Assembly: GCF_030284385.1 (NCBI RefSeq)
Contig: NZ_CP127221.1
Span: forward strand, 1,674,001 to 1,738,000
DNA from: Altererythrobacter rubellus
GTDB taxonomy: Bacteria; Pseudomonadota; Alphaproteobacteria; Sphingomonadales; Sphingomonadaceae
DNA: 64,000 nt
Reading direction: 5' to 3'
Below the pieces are notes generated by a model that saw only the letters and a program-made list of their open reading frames with translations, did not search any database and was not told where the DNA came from. The position numbers and the translations under genes are program-made. Shown here piece after piece: positions 57,968-63,515 of the stretch (position 1 is the first letter of the stretch; the number at the start of each line of letters is the position of its first letter).

Positions 57968-58756
57968 TTGCCCGATACGAATACATACGAACGGTTTGCC
58001 CTTCTGGCCTCGGACGCGCACCGCGCCAGAGCGGCCTATGCTGACCTTTTGCCGACGCATGATTGGGTGCCGATAGAGGAAGCTGACGTTGCTGTGGTGC
58101 TGGGCGGCGATGGTTTCATGCTGCAAACGCTGCACGAGATGCACGATCGCGGCAAAGTGATCCCTGCCTACGGCCTCAATCGCGGCACAGTCGGCTTCAT
58201 GATGAACAAATACCGCAATGGCGGCAATGTGCTGAACCGGGTGCAGAAGGCCCGACCGTTTAAGTTTTCTCCCCTCAGAATGGACGCAGTCACTCAGGAT
58301 GGGGAAGAACACACTTTTCTCGCCATCAACGAAGTCTCCTTGCTGCGTGAAATGCGGCAGACGGCCAAAATCGAAGTGTCGGTGAATGGTCGCGTTCGGA
58401 TTAACGAGCTTGTCTGTGACGGTGTGCTGCTGGCGACCCCTGCTGGCTCTACCGCTTACAACTTGTCTGCCAATGGCCCAATCCTTCCGCTTGATTCTAA
58501 GCTTCTGGCGCTGACACCAATCAGCCCATTCCGCCCTCGCCGTTGGAATGGTGCCATCCTGCCAGATCATTTGCCGGTCAAATTTCGCATACTCGAAGCG
58601 GCCAAGCGGCCGGTTTCGGCCGTGGCTGATCAAACCGAGCTGCGCGACATTGCCGAAGTGATGCTGACGGTTGAGCGCGACACAGAATTGACGCTACTGT
58701 TCGACAAGGGCCATTCGCTGGACGAACGGATCGTTGCCGAACAATTTGCAGTGTGA
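57968..58756 (+). CDS. nadK: NAD kinase
   Basis: 262 aa. Makes NADP from NAD. VVLGGDGFMLQTLHEM holds the GGDG motif and TPAGSTAYNLSANGPI is the second conserved stretch. The start is TTG at 57968, preceded by AAGGGGG at good distance; the ATG at 57951 is in another frame. Downstream of mfd by 66 bases. Confidence 0.93.
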   Translation: MPDTNTYERFALLASDAHRARAAYADLLPTHDWVPIEEADVAVVLGGDGFMLQTLHEMHDRGKVIPAYGLNRGTVGFMMNKYRNGGNVLNRVQKARPFKFSPLRMDAVTQDGEEHTFLAINEVSLLREMRQTAKIEVSVNGRVRINELVCDGVLLATPAGSTAYNLSANGPILPLDSKLLALTPISPFRPRRWNGAILPDHLPVKFRILEAAKRPVSAVADQTELRDIAEVMLTVERDTELTLLFDKGHSLDERIVAEQFAV

Positions 58757-58860: not shown

Positions 58861-58935
58861 TCCCCGATAGCTCAGCGGTAGAGTAGGTGACTGTTAATCA
58901 CTTGGTCGTTGGTTCGAATCCAACTCGGGGAGCCA
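58861..58935 (+). tRNA. tRNA-Asn (GTT)
   Basis: 75 nt with encoded CCA. Acceptor TCCCCGA pairs with TCGGGGA, and the anticodon loop CTGTTAA gives GTT. Its 3' end is part of an inverted repeat that recurs at 62608-62682. Confidence 0.96.
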
Positions 58936-58993
58936 CTAATTCTCACAAAAATACAGATATTTAATAGGAATTGGGGTCTGTCCCAGTTACCCG
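58919..58993 (+). repeat. Left copy of a 75-bp inverted repeat covering the tRNA-Asn 3' end
   Basis: 75 bases, from the tRNA-Asn T-stem through about 58 bases of flank, matching the reverse complement of 62608-62682 at 71 of 75 positions by eye. The shared core includes GGGGTCTGTCCCAGTTAC. It marks the left edge of the accessory segment. Confidence 0.85.
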
Positions 58994-59057
58994 TGACGGT
59001 AGGTCGGCTAGAAGGACCCGCTGTTGCAAGCGTTCGGCAGTGATTTAGTGTGCCCCC

Positions 59058-59237
59058 ATGTCCAACCATGACCTCGCCGCCCGCGTTGAAGGCGCATACC
59101 GCAAGTGCTCGGACCTTCGCGAGCGCAACAATGGTGATGGCACATTCACGATTGACGCAGCTAAGATGATGGCGTTGATTGAACTGCGAAACCTTGCACC
59201 GGAGGTGGTGCTGGCACTGCTTAGGGAGGAGAATTGA
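59058..59237 (+). CDS. Small hypothetical protein in the tRNA-Asn segment
   Basis: 59 aa. Starts MSNHDLAARVEGAYRKCS and ends LAPEVVLALLREEN; helix-rich, no signal peptide. Its TGA shares one base with the ATG of the following lipoprotein gene (TGATG), so the two look coupled. No family recognised. Confidence 0.6.
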   Translation: MSNHDLAARVEGAYRKCSDLRERNNGDGTFTIDAAKMMALIELRNLAPEVVLALLREEN

Positions 59238-59731
59238 TGAAACCTTTTTCTATATTATTAGTCGGCGTGGCTTTGATCGGATGCTCGAGTGATCCAGTCG
59301 AAGATATTTCGAGTTATTTCCGCACTGATCGCAATTTTTGCTATGATCTTTTTTCGAATAATGAAGCGATTATCCCTGAGGGTCTTGAACCACAAGAAAT
59401 TGAAATTGAGATCGGTAGCGCATATCCAGCAAAAAACTCTCTTTATCGCTTTGAAGCAAAATTAGAGGGGCTTACGGTGGTGGGCTACTCAAAGATTTTC
59501 GCAGAAGCGTATTATCCTATTACCATAATCTTCGATGATCCCATTGAAGAGGTCTTAGAAAGGCTTTCGCCAGTCTATTCACCTATTTTCCCAACGTCTC
59601 CGAGCAGGAATGCAAGTGTCGATTATATGGATGATGAGTTCTATTTGAATATCGAAGCTTTCGACCAAGAGGCAACACTGGCGCGCAATAGTTTTGGGCG
59701 TTCGAGCCTGAGCTGCTTTGTTAGGGATTAG
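59237..59731 (+). CDS. Predicted lipoprotein, hypothetical
   Basis: 164 aa. Residues 1-19 form a type II signal (SILLVGVALIGCSSD) with the lipobox LIGC, so the mature protein is probably lipid-anchored in the cell envelope. GGAGG stands before the ATG at 59237. The body is acidic (IEIEIGSAYPAKNSLYRFEA, DYMDDEFYLNIEAF). Base composition is clearly AT-richer than the chromosome around it. No known family. Confidence 0.7.
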   Translation: MKPFSILLVGVALIGCSSDPVEDISSYFRTDRNFCYDLFSNNEAIIPEGLEPQEIEIEIGSAYPAKNSLYRFEAKLEGLTVVGYSKIFAEAYYPITIIFDDPIEEVLERLSPVYSPIFPTSPSRNASVDYMDDEFYLNIEAFDQEATLARNSFGRSSLSCFVRD

Positions 59732-59736
59732 GCTAA

Positions 59737-59982
59737 TTTCGAGTTTTCGCATCCCAAGGCGAAGGCGAAACTTGGACAGATTATAGTTCCTACGAGCTTT
59801 CCGAAGACGGTCAAAAGTTGACAATCAAGACCGAGGATTATGAGTTCGAGAAAATTCGCTGTCCTTAAAGGCAGGCAGTACTTCTCTTTCAGGGCGACCT
59901 AACTCTTATCCTGGACAATGCCGACAAGTCTGGCTTTGAACGGATCGATCGCGAAGGCGATTGCGCCAGTCTTGCAGACTGA
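59737..59982 (+). pseudogene. Degenerate tails of a lipoprotein-like gene
   Basis: One continuous frame interrupted by a TAA at 59866. Before the stop it reads GETWTDYSSYELSEDGQKLT and ends FEKIRCP; after it QGDLTLILDNADKSGFERID and ends DCASLAD. The two parts look like related C-terminal tails (LT...FE-K/R-I...C), suggesting a duplicated or decayed envelope-protein gene whose 5' end was lost. No start codon or signal sequence remains. Confidence 0.55.
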
Positions 59983-59988
59983 TCATTT

Positions 59989-60252
59989 TTGAGAACCATT
60001 TGCGATAGAGTACTATGCCGCAACCCAGCCGCCTACGGCATGACCGTGTGCAGGTACCACGGGGCTAGAAAGCCAGAGACCATCCAGTCCGGCGAGGCAC
60101 ATTGGAACTATCGAAACGGGAAAGAGACGATGAAGGCAAAGTCAGACCGGAGCCTGCGGCTTATCGAGCTGCGCGAGCTGGAGGCACTATCTTTCTCGCT
60201 GGGATTAGCTTCTGGACCTAAATGGCGGGGCAGAAAGCCCAAGGTCCGCTAA
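59989..60252 (+). CDS. Small CxxC/H zinc-ribbon-like protein, phage-type
   Basis: 87 aa from a TTG (or a shorter form from the ATG at 60037). CDRVLCRNPAAYGMTVCRYH gives a possible C-C-C-H zinc site, and HGARKPETIQSGEAHWNYRN resembles the HGG-containing small proteins common in phage and plasmid DNA. Rich in Arg/Lys at the end. Likely DNA- or RNA-binding, but no activity can be named. Confidence 0.5.
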   Translation: MRTICDRVLCRNPAAYGMTVCRYHGARKPETIQSGEAHWNYRNGKETMKAKSDRSLRLIELRELEALSFSLGLASGPKWRGRKPKVR

Positions 60253-60284
60253 CGACCCAATTGCTGACGTTGCCGCCGACGGGC

Positions 60285-60524
60285 TTATTCGCCGTTGCGA
60301 TAGCGCCATTCACCATCAGACCTAAGGTAGCTAATGAAAATAACGGCCGCAGTCAGTGGGATCGCCGCAATTACGAAAGCCAAGGTCGGAAGTAGCGATC
60401 CGGATAAGATCATGGCAGCCACGTATAGACCTAATGCTAACCATCCCTCCCAAGCGATGGGGAAACCTACCCCGTATCCATATCGCTTCACAGGGAACCA
60501 TGGTTTTTTGCCTTGGGTTGGCAT
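60285..60524 (-). CDS. Small two-helix membrane protein
   Basis: 79 aa; starts MPTQGKKPWFPVKRYGYGVG, with two hydrophobic helices (WLALGLYVAAMILSGSLL and TLAFVIAAIPLTAAVIFISY). AGGAG lies 8 bases before the ATG. Resembles small alphaproteobacterial inner-membrane proteins with a Y-G-Y-G-x-G-x-P motif. Function unknown. Confidence 0.65.
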   Translation of the reverse strand: MPTQGKKPWFPVKRYGYGVGFPIAWEGWLALGLYVAAMILSGSLLPTLAFVIAAIPLTAAVIFISYLRSDGEWRYRNGE

Positions 60525-60853
60525 GACATCTCCTAGTCGGCAGAATCTCAGAATAAATTAGCCCTTCTAAGGCAGTTATTGGTCCTGTTAAGCGCACGGA
60601 TTTTACGGTGCAACTCAGCGCGCTGTTGTTGGTTGGTCACGTAATTGATCCCCTGAACTTTCAAGCGCATGCCTAAACCCAATCTACAGATCATTAAGCA
60701 AGACGATGTCACGCTAAGACTATGATTTATATGGTGGACGCACTAGGGTTCGAACCTAGGACCCGCTGATGTCTAGAACTATTTTCAGGTATAACGGGGC
60801 CTAACTAATCACTTGTTTTCTCCATTCGTAAACCACAGAAAATCTTGCTTTAG
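60525..60853. other. Non-coding interval with a tRNA fragment
   Basis: No ORF of note. The only recognisable element is the 3' end of a tRNA on the minus strand at 60732-60770. The rest is AT-rich sequence consistent with decayed DNA. Confidence 0.45.
60732..60770 (-). pseudogene. tRNA 3'-end fragment
   Basis: The minus strand shows a T-arm CTAGG-TTCGAAC-CCTAG, a partial acceptor TGCGTCC, and ACCA. D-arm and anticodon arm cannot be folded from the sequence before it. Such fragments are left when an element integrates in, or excises from, a tRNA gene. It does not match the tRNA-Asn end. Confidence 0.65.
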
Positions 60854-61291
60854 TTAGTCGAATGCAGACGGGTTTTGGCGCCCCTCTAGCCAATGATAAA
60901 AATTGTGACCGTCCTCGGTTTGATCAACCCGCCACGTAAATTCAGCACCGAGGGTAAGCCATTGCCCCTTCTGTTTGTGGTAAAGCGAGCCCGAGCAAAT
61001 AGCGTTAGAAAAATCCTGCCTGAGCGTAACTACTTCTCGAAACTGAAATTCAGTAGCATCAATAAATCCGCTCAGGGTTGCGCCGGTATCACCCTGACCA
61101 GCCAGCGGAAGAAAGGCATCCGCGATTTGTGCCACAAAGCCACCAAAGGGGTTAGAGGCTATCTGATCGATCGTATCATTAGCGATGACCTCAGCGGCCC
61201 CGTCTGCATCGCAACCCTGCTGTAGGGCCTCCGTACATCCGGTAACTAATAGGGTAAGGGCTATCGCTGCCGCGCACTCTACTCTTCTCAC
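60854..61291 (-). CDS. Predicted lipoprotein, hypothetical
   Basis: 145 aa from a GTG. Signal with lipobox in CAAAIALTLLVTGCTEAL (LVTGC). The middle part DQIASNPFGGFVAQIADAFL and the Cys in NAICSGS are noted; no family recognised. Third in a minus-strand run after the 261-aa and 141-aa genes. The SD GAGGAAAG precedes the start. Confidence 0.65.
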   Translation of the reverse strand: MRRVECAAAIALTLLVTGCTEALQQGCDADGAAEVIANDTIDQIASNPFGGFVAQIADAFLPLAGQGDTGATLSGFIDATEFQFREVVTLRQDFSNAICSGSLYHKQKGQWLTLGAEFTWRVDQTEDGHNFYHWLEGRQNPSAFD

Positions 61292-61311
61292 ATCGCTTTC
61301 CTCAGCAGTGG

Positions 61312-62097
61312 TTATGGTTCTTTGTGCCCATTCAGGCCGTTATTCAACACCTGCCGTGGAGAGATCCAGATAGCTCTTTCAGCATGCCAAAATTTCTCAT
61401 CAGCCAAGCCTGTCTTTTCGAGGTCTGCCAAGGAGCATTTCGAATTCAGGGGGTTGTCATCAGATAATACATCTCGAATCCCGATGTCGTTTATTTTGCC
61501 GCTAGTAACGATGTTCCCTCCATCACCGCTTATTTCCAATGACAACAAAGCTGCTGCTTCCTCGTTGTAGTGTTGCCCACTTAAAATGAACCCATCTAAG
61601 TCGATCCATTTTCCTTCTTTATTTGCCCAAACATCTGCGCTTTTGATAACCTCCCGACCGTTTTCGAAAACCTCATTTACATCTAAAATATATTTAGTTC
61701 CTTCCGCCCCTTCATATTCATATGCAGCCCTCGAAATAGTTCCCAAGCTATTCGTTTGCTTTGGATCTACCCAATTGGGGTATGCATAGTATACGCTGTC
61801 GGTCCTGGGCTTCATATATGAAAAGACGGCTCGATTATGTTGGCCGTGTATCGAAAACATAGCCGTATCTAGTTTCATCTGCTCATCGTATCTGAGTATT
61901 TTATCGCATTGATAAATCGAAGAAATATAGATGAGCCCATTAGGAACCGGCGTCCTCTTCCAAGCTGGATCCTTGAGCTTGATTTCGGAAAGCTCTCGAG
62001 TAATGCCTTCAATTTGTGTGTTCTGGAGATCCGGGTTTGAATTTTCGTCGCACCCAGCAAGAGCAATTAGCAGGACTAAGAAAGTTGGTTTTGTCAT
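61312..62097 (-). CDS. Predicted lipoprotein, hypothetical
   Basis: 261 aa. Type II signal TFLVLLIALAGCDEN with lipobox LAGC. The body has alternating polar segments and no recognised domain. The ATG overlaps the preceding gene's stop by 4 bases (ATGA), indicating coupled translation. It is part of a low-GC run. Confidence 0.7.
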   Translation of the reverse strand: MTKPTFLVLLIALAGCDENSNPDLQNTQIEGITRELSEIKLKDPAWKRTPVPNGLIYISSIYQCDKILRYDEQMKLDTAMFSIHGQHNRAVFSYMKPRTDSVYYAYPNWVDPKQTNSLGTISRAAYEYEGAEGTKYILDVNEVFENGREVIKSADVWANKEGKWIDLDGFILSGQHYNEEAAALLSLEISGDGGNIVTSGKINDIGIRDVLSDDNPLNSKCSLADLEKTGLADEKFWHAERAIWISPRQVLNNGLNGHKEP

Positions 62098-62519
62098 TGA
62101 CCGAAAAGAAAGCCGCTTCGCTTAGCAGGGGTAGGCTTTGGTGTTGAAACGTCATAATCACACACCCACAGCAGCAATTCTACATCAGCCTCACTTCCAG
62201 TCCCATCGTCACCCCATGCAGGTTTAATCCTCAGGGGGCGAAAGTCTCCCACTGATCCTTCTCGTGTGGAGACAATCAAAGTCCGCCAACTGTACATCGT
62301 ACAGTCAAACTCTCTGGTTCGCTGAAAATGGATACCATCTTCTACTCGAACCGTGAGCGTCCTTGCCTCTATCAAACCGTTATCTCTGAGAACTATGCTC
62401 GATATATCAATTGATACTTTTTCTTCGGGTGTTTGAATTATAGCAGTCCAGTCGGAGGCCATCAGAGGGCTGGACAGTGTGGCGGCAATCAGGGCGGCTG
62501 AGAGAGTTAGTATACGCAT
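62094..62519 (-). CDS. Secreted protein, possibly surface-adhesin-E-like
   Basis: 141 aa with signal peptide (LTLSAALIAATLSSPLMA, cleavage near ASDW). The mature part has W-x-x-I...V-x-I-D-x-x-S-I and a Cys pair (FDCTMYS, LWVCDYD), a pattern seen in small adhesin-E/CNP1-type envelope proteins, though this resemblance is weak. First gene of the three-gene minus-strand run, 4-bp overlap with the next. Confidence 0.6.
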   Translation of the reverse strand: MRILTLSAALIAATLSSPLMASDWTAIIQTPEEKVSIDISSIVLRDNGLIEARTLTVRVEDGIHFQRTREFDCTMYSWRTLIVSTREGSVGDFRPLRIKPAWGDDGTGSEADVELLLWVCDYDVSTPKPTPAKRSGFLFGQ

Positions 62520-62572
62520 GGCCGCAGATTAGCGCGGAAACGGTGAGGGGCAACAGGTTTTGTTTCCCGTCG

Positions 62573-62596
62573 TTTGTTACCCCATTTGTTACCCCA
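62573..62596. repeat. Tandem 12-bp direct repeat near the right edge
   Basis: TTTGTTACCCCA occurs twice in exact tandem (62573-62584, 62585-62596) just inside the right inverted repeat, upstream of the 141-aa secreted-protein gene. Spaced like arm-type or excisionase sites, but this is only suggestive. Confidence 0.6.
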
Positions 62597-62607
62597 GAGG
62601 CATTTTC

Positions 62608-62682
62608 CGGGTAACTGGGACAGACCCCAATTCCTATTAAACATCTGTATTTTCGTGGGATTTAGTGGCTCCCCGAGTTGGA
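62608..62682 (-). repeat. Right copy of the tRNA-Asn-end inverted repeat
   Basis: Inverted copy of 58919-58993 (4 mismatches by eye), including the last ~17 bases of tRNA-Asn. Beyond it no tRNA body is found. It bounds the accessory segment on the right, just before the TauE gene. Confidence 0.85.
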
Positions 62683-62724
62683 GAAAATGCCTGGATTTGC
62701 CTGCCAAGCGCACAAAAGGGCTGG

Positions 62725-63483
62725 CTAACCGCCAAGCAGAAGCCGCGCGCCCACGATGGTCACCAATCCTGCGGTGAGCCACCGGATCCAGCGTGATGGC
62801 AGTAGCTTCAATGCCATCAAGCTGCCAAGCTGGCCGCCAATCGCAACCGCGATGAGCAGCGGGAGGCTCTCATAGAGAGCCCCCGTGAAGGCATCGGGCC
62901 CACGCTTCAACATTTGTCCGGCTAGGCCGAACACGGAATTTACCAGGATAAATAAGCTTGCCGTCGCAGCGATCGCGCGAGGCTCTCGCCAACGTGTAAG
63001 ATGAAGTAGAGGCGCGAGGAATATCCCTCCCCCGATACCCACTAATCCTGCAAGATAGCCAAGCGGCGCTGCAAACAGCGGCATAAAGCGCACAAGCCGC
63101 GAAGGTTCGCCGCTGTCCTGGCGTTCAAACTGCGGCAACACCATTGTTCCGCCGGTCAAAAGCAAGCTCGCCCCTAACAGGTTGAAGAACAGACCTTCGG
63201 TAATTGGTGTAAGCCCGCCAAGCAAAGCCGCAGGGGCAGCTAAAGCTGTGACAGCGATAGCGCCGCGCCACGGCGTCACACCCGCTCTGGCAAATCGCAT
63301 GGTGCTGCCCGCAACGACTACGATGTTGCACGCGAGTGCAATCAACGGAAGGACCCGGTAGTCGAGCCCAGACAATGCCAGCAAAGCGGCATAAGTTGAT
63401 CCACCGCCAAACCCCACAGCGGCATACAAAACGGCCGCAACGAAGAATGCGGCAACCAGCCCGATTGGGACCAAGCCCGCCAT
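62725..63483 (-). CDS. Sulfite exporter TauE/SafE family protein
   Basis: 252 aa from the ATG at 63483 (a TTG three bases earlier is possible). About 8 hydrophobic segments. GFGGGSTYAALLAL and LVGIGGGIFLAPLLHLTRWR are the paired G-rich motifs of the TauE/SafE (DUF81) family, which export sulfoacetate, sulfite or related organosulfur anions. Substrate unknown. It lies 30 bases beyond secA's stop on the same strand and may share its transcript. Confidence 0.87.
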   Translation of the reverse strand: MAGLVPIGLVAAFFVAAVLYAAVGFGGGSTYAALLALSGLDYRVLPLIALACNIVVVAGSTMRFARAGVTPWRGAIAVTALAAPAALLGGLTPITEGLFFNLLGASLLLTGGTMVLPQFERQDSGEPSRLVRFMPLFAAPLGYLAGLVGIGGGIFLAPLLHLTRWREPRAIAATASLFILVNSVFGLAGQMLKRGPDAFTGALYESLPLLIAVAIGGQLGSLMALKLLPSRWIRWLTAGLVTIVGARLLLGG

Positions 63484-63515
63484 CAATCGCTCCGGCTGCC
63501 TATCGCTCTAGACCG

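Follow-up and report, generated by a model that had tools for sequence, protein, structure and literature searches.

The 64,000-nt window analysed here (Altererythrobacter rubellus, contig NZ_CP127221.1, positions 1,674,001 to 1,738,000) contains a 3.7-kb segment, located between a tRNA-Asn(GTT) gene and a TauE/SafE gene, that is well supported as a decayed, composite genomic island at tRNA-Asn. It is a strain-variable tRNA island of a known kind with two unusual features, an end that lies inverted and a cassette that occupies different tRNA genes in two strains. The whole explanation favoured here, a decayed composite island with one attachment end facing backward, is judged likely. Literature searches on inverted attachment ends and on Altererythrobacter tRNA islands brought up no account of this locus. 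Coordinates of all features are given in Table 1.

The inverted repeat of the tRNA-Asn end

The 3′ end of tRNA-Asn and its flank (copy 1) recur in inverted orientation (copy 2), each copy being 75 nt long with 3614 nt between them. The initial annotation had reported a 75-bp stretch recurring inverted 3.6 kb away; its coordinates proved exact, and base-by-base alignment gives 71 of 75 identical positions, with all mismatches outside the tRNA part (self-alignment E of 4e-29 for the inverted pair). The genome is a single contig of 2,296,411 bases, 99.99% complete, in which a BLAST search with 161 bp of tRNA end and flank finds only two places, the second at E 1.1e-27, so a chance origin of the repeat is excluded. 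The motif TTGGGGTCTGTCCC, allowing one mismatch, occurs genome-wide at these same two places only. In the separately assembled metagenome-assembled genome (MAG) of the same species, G238, the inverted copy 2 lies at the identical position with 1 difference in 75, and copy 2 is therefore not an assembly error.

Copy 2 continues into an attachment-like end

Read on its own strand, copy 2 runs from 17 bp of tRNA-Asn tail through its flank and, 70 bp past the tail, reaches GGGGTAACAAATGGGGTAACAAA followed by about 80 bp of conserved sequence. This conserved end, about 105 bp in all, begins with a tandem 12-bp repeat, and copy 1 has no such continuation. Elsewhere in the genome the tandem repeat is found at two places, each 57 bp behind a tRNA gene, namely tRNA-Thr(TGT) and tRNA-Lys(CTT). 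Copy 2 is probably the backward attachment end of a lost element. That copy 2, unlike copy 1, goes on into a tandem repeat and an end common to other tRNA sites is a point absent from the initial annotation, as are the 10-bp inverted pair and the inverted tRNA-Lys end of Table 1.

The tandem repeats are putative integrase arm sites, to judge from their position, period and company. Among 114 genomes of the genus the repeat (at most two mismatches) is present in three, this one, G238 and G453, and in the last it lies 55 bp behind tRNA-Arg(CCT). A wider contig scan for GGGGTAAC returned four stretches, two in the G238 MAG and one each in L086 and L085. In L086, a gammaproteobacterial MAG, GGGGTAAC and the start of a 418-residue integrase with an Arm-DNA-bind_3 domain are about 20 bp apart, and a tRNA-like 3′ end, seen by eye, is at a distance of roughly 170 bp from the repeat. 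A comparable arrangement is seen in G238 at tRNA-Gly(GCC), where CATAAACGGAT occurs twice at 61 bp and is followed 24 bp on by a 407-residue integrase gene (PF00589). In this genome a near-identical repeat, ATATACGGAT, also occurs twice behind tRNA-Gly(GCC), where it is followed by a lipoprotein gene and no integrase. The tRNA-Gly(GCC) integrase of G238 opens an island (G238:C1:233500-253200) with type I restriction-like genes, named by eye.

Of the 39 tRNA genes, 5 have a tandem repeat of at least 8 bp with a period of 10-13 in the 100 bp behind them, whereas such repeats occur in 20 of 1404 control windows (Fisher p 4e-4), in a test designed after the tRNA-Lys and tRNA-Thr cases, which share one repeat, had been seen; the windows upstream of tRNA genes have none (0/39). 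The conserved end itself was found in 1 of 149 genomes of the family, which is this genome. Relatives of the repeat gave no match in plasmids and phages, and the exact 23-mer was found in no viral contig.

The tRNA-Asn site in related genomes

The locus was examined in 29 of 36 same-genus relatives, over about 1.5 kb past the tRNA in each, and gaps between tRNA-Asn and TauE were measured to the end of the tblastn match. The gene ahead of tRNA-Asn, which we take to be that for NAD kinase (nadK), is the same in all 29. TauE lies within 150 bp behind tRNA-Asn, an empty site, in 13 of the 29 loci; it lies at 307-557 bp in six and at 1.0-1.2 kb in two, and in the other eight it was not seen within the roughly 1.5 kb. 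One of these eight, G005, has an element of about 10.7 kb at tRNA-Asn, with a direct 49-nt tRNA tail and a 405-residue integrase with an Arm-DNA-bind_3 domain. Given the short gaps in relatives and the element in G005, integration at tRNA-Asn does occur in the genus, and the segment has been inserted into a tRNA-Asn/TauE gap that is otherwise short.

The content of the segment is not shared across these loci. DNA-level matches to it (E of at most 0.001) occur in 4 of the 29 and consist of the tRNA tail only, and the cargo open reading frames (ORFs) have no match in any of them. The empty site that the initial annotation proposed to look for is thus present in relatives; its companion, a direct-repeat version of this island with an integrase, was not found, the G005 element having only the tRNA tail in common with the segment.

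Comparison with strain G238

G238 follows the window up to 58937, 2 bp past the tRNA, with 99.7% identity over the last 337 bp. It then differs over 58938-59958, where its own first kilobase is largely inverted, and again shares 59959-62900 at 99% identity (29 differences in 2942), in the same orientation and with the backward end included. Since G238 carries this block in the same orientation at 99%, the block looks older than the split between the strains, and the first kilobase is strain-variable. The expectation that an old, fixed region would be the same in all close relatives, with no empty site, therefore applies within the species to 59959-62900 and fails for the variable first kilobase and for the empty sites elsewhere in the genus.

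Within the first kilobase, pieces related to this genome are inverted in G238: 58980-59312 at 90% and 59755-59903 at 95% identity. G238 instead begins behind tRNA-Asn with a different attachment-like start, in which AATCCGCCCT occurs twice from 53 bp on; a 41-bp imperfect palindrome stands directly behind its tRNA-Asn (G238:C1:1847951-1847991). Of its first kilobase, 731 bp match the tRNA-Leu(CAG) island of this genome at 96.9%, by which one cassette is located at tRNA-Leu in this strain and at tRNA-Asn in G238. Lipoprotein A is a hybrid: a match to a gene of the tRNA-Leu island covers its first 76 bp but not its body, and behind it comes the leftover tail of that island gene. The 59-residue ORF of the cassette occurs six times in 4 of 114 genus genomes, five of the six near a tRNA gene: at Asn and Leu here, at Asn and Lys in G238 and at Lys(TTT) in G007. 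The sixth, in G434, has no tRNA within its 3-kb stretch. The tRNA-Leu(CAG) island (G000:C1:695826-700109) contains a Sel1-like repeat protein (by eye), the 59-residue ORF, a 132-residue lipoprotein and a below-cut-off match to DUF5681, which we take to be a phage-type gene.

Other tRNA tails in the segment

When the last 30 bases of the 39 tRNA genes were compared with the segment, only tRNA-Lys(CTT) was matched over the whole length, inverted at 60732; tRNA-Asn aside, the others reached at most 21 of 30. Because this tRNA-Lys tail is oriented as copy 2 is, 60714-62682 looks like one backward unit. At the tRNA-Lys(CTT) gene itself the two strains diverge no more than one base from the end of the tRNA, and this genome has there a 0.7-kb island closed by a direct 37-nt tRNA-Lys tail at 89% (G000:C1:1629855-1630576). 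In that small island no integrase was recognised, and it encodes one cysteine-rich secreted protein.

How the end may have come to lie backward

In the favoured explanation, tyrosine-integrase elements with tandem 11-12-bp arm sites would enter the 3′ ends of Asn, Lys, Thr and Gly tRNA genes and, in this genome, would lose their integrases and leave attachment ends and cargo behind. The part from 59959 to 62682 would be one such old remnant, now reversed, with its tRNA-Asn tail, 70-bp spacer, arm repeat and conserved end leading away from the tRNA. The reversal may have been an inversion between copies 1 and 2, brought about either by homologous recombination or by the action of an integrase at opposed sites, and the first kilobase would have been exchanged differently in the two strains. 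Inversion between the copies is the simplest single step, because re-inverting the segment on paper puts the arm repeat behind tRNA-Asn much as it stands behind tRNA-Lys and tRNA-Thr; it is the likeliest history, with a chance that is perhaps about even. Inversions result when tyrosine recombinases act on opposed sites. For two related, oppositely oriented archaeal elements, an inversion between them is reported (PMC8371274). Of the alternatives raised in the initial annotation, a rearranged, integrase-less island is borne out, as the inner pieces inverted in G238 attest, and inversion between the copies fits best for how the end was turned.

Several points weigh against this explanation. The inversion step requires an earlier second, inverted tail whose origin the proposal leaves unexplained, and the un-inverted form was seen in no genome. 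The segment has no direct tRNA-Asn tail (attachment site attR), the best candidate matching 16 of 30 bases. The only other genome found for the species is G238, so that the failure to see an empty site within the species relates to one other genome. The arm-site reading is drawn from position and period, not from binding, and the enrichment of tandem repeats carries the post hoc design given above. The spacer of copy 2 is 70 bp compared to 55-57 bp at the other tRNA genes. No integrase adjoining the GGGGTAAC repeat was seen in the searched genus genomes, of which 3 of 114 have the repeat; the repeat beside the G238 tRNA-Gly integrase differs in sequence from GGGGTAAC, and the 8 kb around the L085 match contain no tRNA that could be found and no integrase recognised by eye. 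Codon changes between G238 and this genome in five ORFs comprise 12 nonsynonymous (one a stop) and 7 synonymous ones; given these counts and the stop codon, the cargo ORFs appear to give no sign of strong selection.

The end may also never have turned. In that case an element would have inserted in reverse, at a secondary site next to tRNA-Asn or at the near-palindromic T-arm TTGGTTCGAATCCAA, and brought its own attachment end in backward. The tRNA part of copy 2 does start directly past the T-loop TTCGAA, and the first-kilobase cassette of G238 is reversed relative to its counterpart here, so both orientations do occur at the tRNA-Asn site. Reverse insertion into the tRNA would, however, split the sole tRNA-Asn gene and leave a left end in need of later repair, and at 59959, where the block begins on the left, no second half-site was recognised by eye; this course is considered fairly unlikely. 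A different route is an inverted duplication by template switching, in which a snap-back of the tRNA-Asn flank, aided by the pair AGGCATTTTC/GAAAATGCCT, would have produced copy 2. The two 10-bp halves of this pair adjoin copy 2 on both sides, a possible sign of strand switching or of break repair at this place, and in a post hoc test 74 of 200,000 random window positions likewise had an exact inverted 10-mer no more than 22 bp away on either side. The arm repeat and the conserved end, however, would not come along with a short copy of copy 1. Moreover, the copies have 4 differences in 75 positions, and four or more differences have a chance of 0.007 at a 1% rate (the divergence between the strains, 29 in 2942) if copying post-dated the strain split; this bears on post-split copying only. 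Snap-back duplication is regarded as quite improbable. A flip confined to copy 2, within its 10-bp stem, was also weighed and discarded: undoing it reverses the geometry of the arm repeat relative to that at tRNA-Lys and tRNA-Thr.

Two further readings concern the repeat and the segment as working units. The repeat could be a small dispersed element beside the tRNA, such as a repetitive extragenic palindrome (REP), a miniature inverted-repeat transposable element (MITE) or the end of an insertion sequence (IS). It does contain the near-palindrome GGGGTCTGTCCC, and mobile repeats carry motifs of this kind. Many copies would be expected, however, and the genome has two; of 396 genomes of the order, only the two of this species contain the core 21-mer (at most two mismatches), and the repeat includes tRNA sequence itself. 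Copy number sets this reading aside, and it is hardly credible. The segment could instead be inverted reversibly between its repeats, as in phase variation, a reading that suits repeats flanking envelope-protein genes and an inner part inverted in G238. Yet in that one other strain the boundaries of the inverted part are not at the repeats and its identity is only 90-95%, the block adjoining copy 2 is oriented alike in the two strains, a PF00589 recombinase is absent within 28 kb, and the ORF at 59989-60252 has one codon that reads as stop in G238. A working invertible segment is very improbable.

A broader view of the same modules is that those without integrases at tRNA-Asn, -Lys and -Thr, which share ends, and at tRNA-Leu, which shares the cassette, are small non-autonomous elements moved between tRNA genes in trans by the integrases of visiting elements, in either orientation at tRNA-Asn. 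It is unlikely; if it holds, these modules would add a new case of satellite-like elements residing at tRNA genes. For the decayed composite island itself, nothing was seen to suggest that it is still self-mobile.

Relation to known systems

Cis-mobilizable elements (CIMEs) are described, in the accessible portion of PMC5704250, as elements without integration and transfer genes that keep both attachment sites, attL and attR. The segment is like them in being tRNA-bounded, with no integrase found, small cargo and a repeatedly used insertion site. It differs in that its second end is inverted and no direct attR was found, so ordinary excision between direct sites is not expected. Integration and transfer genes were not found, and attL and attR are not both kept, the attL-like end being present but inverted; because no direct attR was found, the segment is not a CIME in the strict sense. 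As a tRNA island, it starts at a tRNA end and has an empty counterpart in relatives, and neither a direct far repeat nor an integrase was found.

The ssrA islands of Dehalococcoides offer a parallel, since in the portion available (PMC3146451) 15 of 31 have no integration module and some are perhaps fixed; these, like the segment, are cargo-only islands at an RNA gene, but they involve a serine integrase and direct repeats, and no inverted end like that of the segment is mentioned for them in that portion. Tycheposons, as far as the accessible text describes them (PMC10872708), are likewise tRNA-flanked variable islands, but are 4-200 kb long and have a tyrosine recombinase, which was not found in the 3.7-kb segment. 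At attL of the KplE1 type, the arm-type P′ sites of IntS overlap the intS promoter behind argW, according to the part of the report available (PMC2951348). Arm-type repeats between a tRNA end and an integrase start are also the arrangement at tRNA-Gly of G238; the arm sequence is different, and the tRNA-Asn segment has no remaining integrase.

The locus suggests that a tRNA hotspot in a small genome may collect the ends and cargo of several elements, one of them backward, and keep them after the integrases are gone. Searches based on integrases would miss such islands, and a tandem repeat of 11-12 bp lying 50-70 bp behind a tRNA gene is suggested as a marker for them.

Layout and cargo of the segment

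Table 1. Features of the tRNA-Asn segment and its flanks (positions in the window)
Feature	Position	Strand	Basis or remark
Left conserved flank, presumed NAD kinase gene (nadK)	57968..58756	+	tblastn match ahead of tRNA-Asn in 29/29 same-genus loci
tRNA-Asn(GTT), intact	58861..58935	+	ARAGORN and RF00005; sole tRNA-Asn among 39 tRNAs found
Copy 1	58919..58993	+	last 17 bp of tRNA-Asn plus 58 bp
Strain-variable first kilobase	58938..59958		related pieces inverted in G238
59-aa ORF	59058..59237	+	
Lipoprotein A, hybrid	59237..59731	+	lipobox by eye
Leftover 3′ end and downstream bases of tRNA-Leu-type lipoprotein gene	59755..59903	+	95% to 697592-697740
87-aa ORF	59989..60252	+	phrog_3678 weak, E 7.5e-5; HGGxSTG below cut-off, E 0.016
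79-aa ORF	60285..60524	-	membrane-like by eye
tRNA-Lys(CTT) 3′ end, inverted	60731..60770	-	last 30/30 bases; 40/40 to G238 gene
Lipoprotein B, 145 aa	60854..61291	-	no significant family; lipobox by eye
Lipoprotein C, 261 aa	61312..62097	-	lipobox by eye
Secreted protein, 141 aa	62094..62519	-	no family above cut-off; signal peptide by eye
Conserved element end	62491..62595	-	88% at tRNA-Thr(TGT); 84% over 74-76-bp part at tRNA-Lys(CTT)
Tandem 12-bp repeat GGGGTAACAAAT, putative integrase arm-type site	62573..62595	-	70 bp from CCA of copy 2
10-bp inverted pair around copy 2, left half (AGGCATTTTC/GAAAATGCCT)	62598..62607	+	
Copy 2	62608..62682	-	17 bp of tRNA-Asn 3′ end plus 58-bp flank, inverted
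10-bp inverted pair around copy 2, right half	62683..62692	-	
Right conserved flank, TauE/SafE gene	62725..63486	-	PF01925; position in relatives

The initial annotation had also set the contents of the segment, three lipoproteins, a secreted protein and small ORFs at low guanine-cytosine (GC) content, apart from the surrounding chromosome, and had noted that an integrase is absent. Both observations stand. The contents read the same by eye, with lipoboxes LIGC, VTGC and LAGC in the three lipoproteins, and GC is 0.43-0.56 in windows inside the segment compared to 0.55-0.60 in purely flanking windows. The stretch between the copies yielded no integrase, and a genome-wide search, made with PF00589 only, gave three matches (E of at most 0.001), the nearest 28 kb away; for seven ORFs in the segment, Pfam gives nothing up to E 1.

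The cargo probably consists of small envelope proteins of unproven use. PADLOC gave no match up to E 0.1 for the cargo proteins, and no NCBIfam model scored over any cut-off. The PHROGs search gave a single match, that of the 87-residue ORF to a family of unknown function. Of the 114 genus genomes, two encode lipoprotein C (this one and G238), and the 59-residue ORF has no match in plasmids. The stretch at 60240-60272 has four more weak matches in G238 and is perhaps an intergenic repeat of the species.

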